From NCBI RefSeq assembly GCF_000226215.1, contig NZ_AGFF01000008.1, positions 1 through 64,000 of the forward strand: a DNA stretch of 64,000 nucleotides, in the 5' to 3' direction. The notes beneath the pieces are model-generated. The model was not told where the DNA came from. It worked only from the letters and a program-made list of their open reading frames with translations, and searched no databases. The stretch's first letter is position 1. The number at the start of each line of letters is the position of its first letter. The position numbers were made by a program, and so were the translations under genes. This document shows positions 6,006 through 6,370 of the stretch, piece by piece. This DNA comes from Dietzia alimentaria 72 (GTDB lineage: Bacteria > Actinomycetota > Actinomycetes > Mycobacteriales > Mycobacteriaceae).

Positions 6006-6332
6006 ATGACTACATCGCTCACGTCCATCACTGGAGGCCTCTCCGAGACGCTCTCCGAGGCCGTCGCGCGACGACTGCGTGGTGCCCTCGCGGAGCTGCA
6101 GATCAGCCACGCCGAAGCCGGCCGACGCATCGACATCAACCCGTCAGGGATGTCGCGCCGCATGAAAGGCAAGCACCCGTGGGATCTGGACGAACTCCAG
6201 CGACTCTCCGAGGCTTGCGGGGTCGACATGACCTACGTACTCACCGGGATCCGAAATGCAGAAAACCCCCACCCGGACGGACCGGATGGGGGAGTTGTGC
6301 GCCATCAGGGACTCGAACCCCGAACCCGCTGA
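6006..6332 (+). CDS. Prophage immunity repressor, 3' end inside tRNA-Lys
   Basis: A 108-residue HTH protein. The DNA-binding domain is about residues 15-80 (SHAEAGRRIDINPSGMSRRM). A Pro/Gly-rich tail follows, and the last ten codons and the TGA stop lie within the host tRNA-Lys gene on the opposite strand. A GTG at 5988 is an alternative start. It diverges from the Cro-like gene and shares its recognition-helix pattern, which fits a lysogeny repressor. Because the attachment site lies inside the gene, the circular phage form would encode a different C-terminus. This is the arrangement of integration-dependent immunity in mycobacteriophages BPs, Brujita and Charlie. Truncation after integration is inferred. 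Confidence 0.75.
   Translation: MTTSLTSITGGLSETLSEAVARRLRGALAELQISHAEAGRRIDINPSGMSRRMKGKHPWDLDELQRLSEACGVDMTYVLTGIRNAENPHPDGPDGGVVRHQGLEPRTR
6266..6292 (-). terminator. Terminator of tRNA-Lys, on the prophage side
   Basis: An inverted repeat (CCCCCA paired with TGGGGG, plus inner CCGG arms) followed on the minus strand by TTTTC forms an intrinsic terminator six bases after the tRNA 3' end. It lies inside the repressor coding sequence and on the prophage side of the junction. The prophage thus seems to supply the terminator for the host tRNA. Confidence 0.65.
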
Positions 6333-6335
6333 TTA
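6298..6335. other. Probable attachment-site junction (att) in tRNA-Lys 3' half
   Basis: The prophage-side sequence meets the tRNA-Lys gene at its 3' end (base 6298). Tyrosine integrases usually recombine within the anticodon to 3' end of a tRNA and carry a copy of that part. The crossover must therefore lie somewhere in this stretch or slightly inside the tRNA. The exact core cannot be set without the other junction, which is outside the window. Confidence 0.6.
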
Positions 6336-6370
6336 AGAGTCAGCTGCTCTGCCAATTGAGCTAATGGCGC
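6298..6370 (-). tRNA. tRNA-Lys(CTT)
   Basis: A complete 73-base cloverleaf on the minus strand. The acceptor arms GCGCCAT/ATGGCGC pair fully, the anticodon loop CTCTTAA gives CTT, the T-loop is TTCGAGT and the discriminator is A. CCA is not encoded. Its 3' end is the prophage integration point, and the gene has been left intact by insertion. Confidence 0.95.

Follow-up and report, generated by a model that had tools for sequence, protein, structure and literature searches.

A prophage repressor gene that ends inside host tRNA-Lys, and its very probable role in an integration-dependent immunity switch

The whole stretch of DNA analyzed here (the window) comprises bases 1-64000 of contig C32, which belongs to an assembly of 3.35 Mb in 39 contigs. 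It opens with one part of a prophage that runs into a host tRNA-Lys gene, and its features at this junction are the following.

1..6331, no strand: repressor-side part of the prophage in the window; the remainder is C16:1-32981, with a gap between the two
4768..5592, minus strand: phage antirepressor with BRO-N and KilAC/ANT parts (profile matches), next after the Cro-like gene
5651..5908, minus strand: divergent Cro-like HTH gene, start uncertain (profile matches)
5909..6005, no strand: intergenic control region between the repressor and Cro-like genes, negative for promoter and operator palindrome
6006..6332, plus strand: immunity repressor gene as judged by profile matches, integrated short form of 108 aa; its stop TGA is formed at the core/host edge
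6262..6292, minus strand (the tRNA strand): terminator-like hairpin with an 11-bp stem and a loop of 5, followed by TTTT, within the repressor codons (ENPHPDGPDGG region)
6296..6331, no strand: attachment (att) common core of 36 bp at the repressor-side junction, identical to C16:32946-32981
6297..6370, minus strand: host tRNA-Lys(CTT), its 3' part rebuilt by the phage core as judged from ARAGORN and the empty sites of the same genus

The repressor frame runs rightwards from an ATG at 6006 to a TGA at 6330-6332, and an alternative upstream TTG start at 5979 is open as well. The 108-aa product matches phrog_2328 ('transcriptional repressor', E 1.2e-16) and Pfam BetR (E 2.1e-6), and as judged by these profiles it is an HTH repressor. 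Its C-terminal codons, RHQGLEPRTR, are antisense to the tRNA-Lys(CTT) gene that ARAGORN places at 6297-6370 on the minus strand. The original prediction had the repressor crossing the phage/host junction in this manner, with the attachment site inside the repressor gene. Both points hold, with the refinement that the T and G of the stop codon come from the shared core, while the A at 6332 alone is of host origin. As judged by comparison with the far junction and with empty sites (see below), the attachment core is shown to sit within the repressor gene and within the host tRNA-Lys gene, the 3' end of which is restored by the phage core.

The predicted divergent Cro-like gene is real and lies at 5651-5908 on the minus strand. 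The region between it and the repressor gene (5909-6005) gave no promoter match, and no operator palindrome was recognized in it. The HTH parts of the Cro-like protein and of the repressor share 38% identity over 61 aa (5687-5869 on the minus strand against 6048-6230 on the plus strand), as if one had derived from the other. Elsewhere in the window, ARAGORN called a tRNA-Gln (TTG) of odd shape at 57814-57900 on the plus strand, 87 bases long and with its anticodon at position 32, which could be spurious or degraded.

A DNA search of the whole 3.35-Mb assembly with bases 6250-6400 of the window revealed one other exact copy of the 36-bp core, located at C16:32946-32981 on the minus strand. The remaining match to the core was a single one of 80% within a tRNA-Trp gene. 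Read in the direction of the window, C16 leads from host DNA into the core, which is followed by TGG in place of TGA, by 29 open codons (WYGERPSSAGGEVIPLRPADTTPRELIAA) and by a TGA. The attP-side repressor frame leaves the core at C16:32945 leftwards and, going by the nucleotide sequence alone, ends in ELIAA and a stop. Given the TGG and the 29 open codons beyond the far core, the circular form would code for a repressor of 137 aa and the integrated form for one of 108 aa.

The stop of the long form overlaps the ATG of a 74-aa ORF (ATGA), for which we obtained no match to a Pfam or PHROG family. This ORF is followed by a tyrosine recombinase (integrase) of 293 aa with the C-terminus WDLPRAA. 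In the phage form, repressor and integrase share a strand, the integrase lying downstream with the 74-aa ORF between them, as in published relatives. Up to E 0.01, its Pfam matches comprise a SAM-like domain (below the cut-off) and the catalytic domain only. The integrase thus appears to be armless, i.e., without an arm-type DNA-binding domain as far as the Pfam scan reaches, and armless integrases typify integration-dependent immunity systems (PMC6109161, in excerpt). Its PRAA end suggests a candidate degradation tag of its own. This far junction agrees with the original prediction, which had placed a second copy of the tRNA-Lys 3' sequence, extra in-frame repressor codons with an AA tail, and an integrase at the opposite prophage end. 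The outcomes named as counting against it, namely a junction elsewhere, an unchanged reading frame, or the lack of an integrase or tRNA repeat, were not what we found.

Contigs C16 and C32 can be joined through the empty sites of related genomes. The core is present with at most one mismatch in 20 of the 23 genomes of the genus, our own included. In 18 of the 19 loci from other genomes the core is followed by ATTAAGAGTCAG, with an intact tRNA and an A after the core; in the nineteenth, L048, a mismatch falls within the string that was sought. The C16-side host flank aligned in 16 of the 19 loci (not in L029, L031 and L048), and the C32-side host flank aligned over most of its length in 18 (over 39 bp only in L048). 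With ~1.5 kb searched per side, the phage flanks aligned in none of the 19. An empty site between both host flanks is therefore present in 16 of these 19 loci. Because the host flanks are joined and the phage flanks absent at the empty loci, C16 and C32 border one insertion site. As no overlap was found between the ends C16:1 and C32:1, the prophage sequence is interrupted there by a gap.

The two parts differ in gene content. C16:1-32981 codes for the small and large terminase subunits, portal, head protease, tape measure, minor tail protein and endolysin, and further carries a second recombinase, an Ltp lipoprotein, the integrase and the att site. C32:1-6331 holds a ParB-like gene and the control genes. 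The second tyrosine recombinase (C16:30150-31070, plus strand) is encoded opposite to the integrase and shares 49% identity with the Arthrobacter phage Auxilium integrase; double integrases are known in some Gordonia phages (PMC5559632, in excerpt). Between both recombinases lies an Ltp-type lipoprotein (C16:31131-31700, minus strand) that matches Pfam Lipoprotein_Ltp (1.6e-29) and phrog_4980 ('superinfection exclusion'). Judging from these matches, it is a candidate for a second, surface-level exclusion function besides the repressor.

With both forms of the repressor at hand, we compared the system with known phages. A tblastn search with the 137-aa form matched 46 of 50,697 phage records, some of them GenBank/RefSeq duplicates of one phage. 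Sorted by phage host, these are Gordonia (27), Mycobacterium (12) and Arthrobacter (7); by annotation, they are immunity repressors (31), transcriptional repressors (8) and HTH or hypothetical proteins (7). The integrase matched 163 phage records, with the best matches in small Gordonia phages; it is 53-57% identical to five and 41-43% identical to two such phages that carry the tRNA-Lys core. A profile search of genome contigs with the integrase gave, among the matches listed, at least 80 distant recombinases from many phyla at 37% identity or less. A search of a plasmid collection yielded three weak HTH matches.

In the phages Coeur, Rahul, McGonagall, GMA5, SallySpecial, Emperor and EricDab, 35 or all 36 of the 36 core bases lie inside the repressor gene, and all seven repressors end in AA. 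Coeur (MK801723) and Rahul (OR521067) read the core in the same frame as here (RHQGLEPRTRW; RHQGLEPRTRWFG...AA), whereas the other five read it in another frame (CAIRDSNPEPAD...AA). Our repressor is 38% identical to that of Coeur and 35% to that of Rahul, and the small Gordonia phages with the core have genomes of 15.9-17.6 kb, compared to at least 39 kb here. For GMA5, GRU3, Jeanie and McGonagall, the consulted part of PMC5559632 describes a common 37-bp attP at tRNA-Lys and, for GMA5, an extra ORF between integrase and repressor. The original prediction had described host, tRNA and proteins as unlike those of the mycobacterial examples, which fits, yet Gordonia phages with the same tRNA-Lys core and layout have already been published (excerpt of PMC5559632) and are present in GenBank.

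An integrated relative was found in G363, a genome of another genus of the same family. There, the two halves of an Emperor-like element share one contig at a distance of 16.6 kb, and the core measures 39 bp. The repressor ends in ...CAIRDSNPEPAD and a stop on the tRNA side and in ...CAIRDSNPEPADLESSSQTRGSYQCDLVPLRPVAA and a stop on the other, and on these features the element is an independent integrated example. In the IMG/VR entry 2706796417 (L149), two copies of the tRNA-Lys core lie at 3501 and 3578, 77 bases apart. The repressor frame through the first core ends in ...LVTAA, and another tail with this ending is found behind the second core, as could result from a duplicated att site or tail.

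Reading of one att core in different frames has a precedent in the tandem prophages of M. abscessus T36, whose repressors are read through a common core (PMC9934374, in part); we therefore rejected two frames over one core as a novelty. The T36 prophages differ from ours in their tRNA-Thr site and tandem arrangement, as far as the same excerpt describes them. A small ORF between repressor and integrase that overlaps the repressor stop, as seen here, is also found in the Gordonia phages Hedwig, Guacamole, HannahD and TillyBobJoe and in phiGD21-1 of M. abscessus, which has two. TillyBobJoe does not contain the 36-bp core (best match 21/36). In several phages of this class (L254, L257, L258, L259 and L027) and in this prophage, where the small ORF is that of 74 aa, the overlap spans 4 bases. 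As such an ORF begins on the repressor stop, integration would part it from the repressor, too.

A close counterpart is mycobacteriophage BPs. According to the consulted part of PMC4557955, BPs shares with our prophage an attP within the repressor gene, an adjacent same-strand integrase, a divergent Cro-like gene and an ssrA-like tag. Its repressor gp33 has a short form of 103 aa (108 here) and a long form of 136 aa (137 here; same excerpt). Unlike BPs, which we compared by description only, the prophage has a 74-aa ORF between repressor and integrase. In BPs the tag leads to degradation of the long repressor, and the short one persists in an active state, which constitutes integration-dependent immunity (PMC4557955, PMC9934374, both in excerpt).

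The tail of the long form resembles a degradation tag. The tmRNA tag of the host is ADTNQRDYALAA, which ends in ALAA; the extended repressor has the AA end that had been predicted, its last residues being IAA against LAA in the host tag. AA ends are rare as background: among 360 six-frame ORFs with 100 aa or more in the window and the prophage part of C16, 5 (1.4%) have one. They are found in 22 of 25 repressors, that is, this one and 24 from named phages, and in all ten Gordonia repressors of a smaller set contained within the 25. The three other ends are IPA in UmaThurman, IPA in JustASigh and ASA in Aoka. Our tail further contains VIPLRPADTT, to be compared with IVPLRPAKDT in the tail of UmaThurman, a phage that integrates at a tRNA-Arg site (PMC4929511). 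Seven of the 22 AA tails contain a motif [VLI][IVL]P[LV], compared with a mean of 0.26 after shuffling, and none of 5000 shuffles reached 7; the motif was picked after inspection of the tails, and its carriers PhrostedPhlake, Hibiscus and Phlop are alike. This VIPLR-type motif, which occurs in tails with different repressors and att sites, is a possible second tag element or adaptor site.

Taken together, these data make it very probable that the prophage carries an integration-dependent immunity switch, and at the level of sequence the original interpretation is supported. As described for such systems in the consulted parts of PMC9934374 and PMC4557955, the core lies within the repressor coding sequence, and the prophage form is shortened by a stop base derived from the host. 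The type of switch is already known from BPs, Brujita, Charlie and many Gordonia phages, and the prophage is a clear new example of it. In the circular phage, a 137-aa repressor with a 29-residue extension ending in ELIAA would be encoded ahead of the small ORF and the integrase with its PRAA end. Recombination with attB changes the base after the core and thus turns TGG into TGA. Through this swap the prophage makes the 108-aa repressor, and the tag codons and the integrase move to the other prophage end.

By analogy with BPs and its relatives, we infer that the long form undergoes proteolysis and that immunity arises after integration only. Host proteolysis of the ClpXP type would keep the 137-aa form low, and an unintegrated genome would consequently go lytic. 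Integration would yield the stable 108-aa form, which would repress the divergent early promoter and confer immunity, and excision would bring back the tagged form. For BPs, Broussard et al. 2013 reportedly described tag-driven loss of the long repressor, a stable and active short form, and immunity that hinges on integration.

Two other readings of the locus have to be weighed. The switch might have been functional in an ancestor and the prophage since have decayed, leaving inert att sites and a short repressor that is a fossil. The assembly gap between C16 and C32 would leave room for such decay, but the frames for repressor, Cro-like protein, antirepressor, integrase, terminase, portal, protease, tape measure and endolysin are all open and both cores are identical over 36 bp, and we consider this reading improbable. 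We give hardly any credence to the overlap being a by-product of tRNA-gene integration with chance coding past the other core: stops do follow the core closely in two frames of antisense tRNA-Lys, so that some truncated ORF is expected, but of six other core copies outside tRNA-Lys genes in the same family, picked from among the matches listed, one had 80 or more open codons in front of the core (ending in ARR) and none had both such a frame and an AA end. The tail here, moreover, combines the rare AA end with the VIPLRPA-like letters of UmaThurman, and in Coeur and Rahul the core is read in the frame used here and the repressor again ends in AA.

The hairpin at 6262-6292 is located on the tRNA strand directly behind the tRNA 3' end, within the repressor codons. 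Its energy is -24.8 kcal/mol, which 1 of 200 dinucleotide shuffles equalled (z -2.85). Two terminator-like matches were obtained within 5600-6450, of which the hairpin is the stronger; the weaker one lies at 6394-6413 on the minus strand, on the other side of tRNA-Lys. Integration has moved the host hairpin with its T7 to C16, where it lies just past the core, and at many empty sites of the genus GC-rich inverted repeats are seen by eye at that place.

To see whether the encoded protein by itself accounts for the hairpin, we compared it with synonymous shuffles, in which codons were swapped among synonyms within each gene (200 shuffles, the 5% level corresponding to at most 10 of 200). Twenty-five repressors were examined; HannahD, Aoka and JustASigh are without a T-loop motif and were left out of hairpin placement. 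The hairpin went beyond the shuffles in 15 of the 22 repressors with the motif, which are not 15 independent cases since the genes are related to differing degrees. An earlier run had included 17 genes, of which 15 were placed. For this prophage, 2 and 7 of 200 shuffles folded as well in two runs. We rejected the hairpin as a universal feature, as 7 of the 22 do not exceed the shuffles at this cut-off, namely SallySpecial, EricDab, Charlie, Brujita, Meyran, phiGD21-1 and Ryan; SallySpecial gave 10/200 in one run and 14/200 in the other. Among 80 IMG/VR loci, 47 extended 500 bases or more upstream of the integrase; an ORF spanned a T-loop motif in 28 of the 47, and in 13 of the 28 such an ORF ended in AA. 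A strong hairpin (at most 5/100 shuffles) was present in 6 of the 13 AA cases, one of which (L147) matches GMA5. Counts in 200 shuffles were 4 for L140 and 21 for L198.

Tentatively, and with somewhat more reserve than confidence, we suggest that the repressor-borne hairpin may be a terminator supplied by the phage, which would guard both tRNA maturation and the repressor gene and add a third coding layer. Between the DNA-binding part of the repressor and the att core, the linker (PDGDG / GPDGG) would be written such that its antisense is an intrinsic terminator for the host tRNA. Upon integration, the phage would mend the tRNA 3' end, substitute for the lost terminator and shield the repressor gene, by then essential to it, from head-on tRNA transcription, with repressor codons serving all three ends. 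Alternatively, the hairpin might act on the sense transcript, for example by attenuating integrase expression or slowing translation. It can form on either strand, and the T-rich tail is weak in several relatives, both in favor of a sense role, which we nevertheless regard as rather unlikely. In the 15 genes, T after the stem is commoner on the tRNA strand (49) than on the repressor strand (28), although the stretches counted, 7 or 8 bases on the tRNA strand and 6 to 8 on the other, bias this slightly towards the tRNA strand. The stem begins ~6-10 nt from the tRNA end in 12 of the 15, this end being an estimate from the T-loop motif outside the tRNA-Lys core; for PhrostedPhlake and Guacamole, a helix other than that implied by the fold or by low energy was picked. 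The displacement of the host T7 hairpin also speaks against a sense role, and translating ribosomes are expected to break a hairpin in the sense transcript. The literature searched, with the founding papers Broussard 2013 and Broussard & Hatfull 2013 outside it, contained no report of a hairpin or terminator in integration-dependent immunity.

The prophage adds a well-resolved example to the class of switches in which integration itself turns immunity on. Both halves and the empty sites are visible in public genomes, and none of the 22 other genomes of the genus searched has this repressor (E 1e-4). The comparison yields two testable ideas, a VIPLR-type second tail motif beside the terminal AA and an antisense tRNA terminator in the repressor gene. 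For specialists, the dual-coded terminator may be the point of interest: if true, terminator strength would be a selected part of lysogeny stability in this class of phages.
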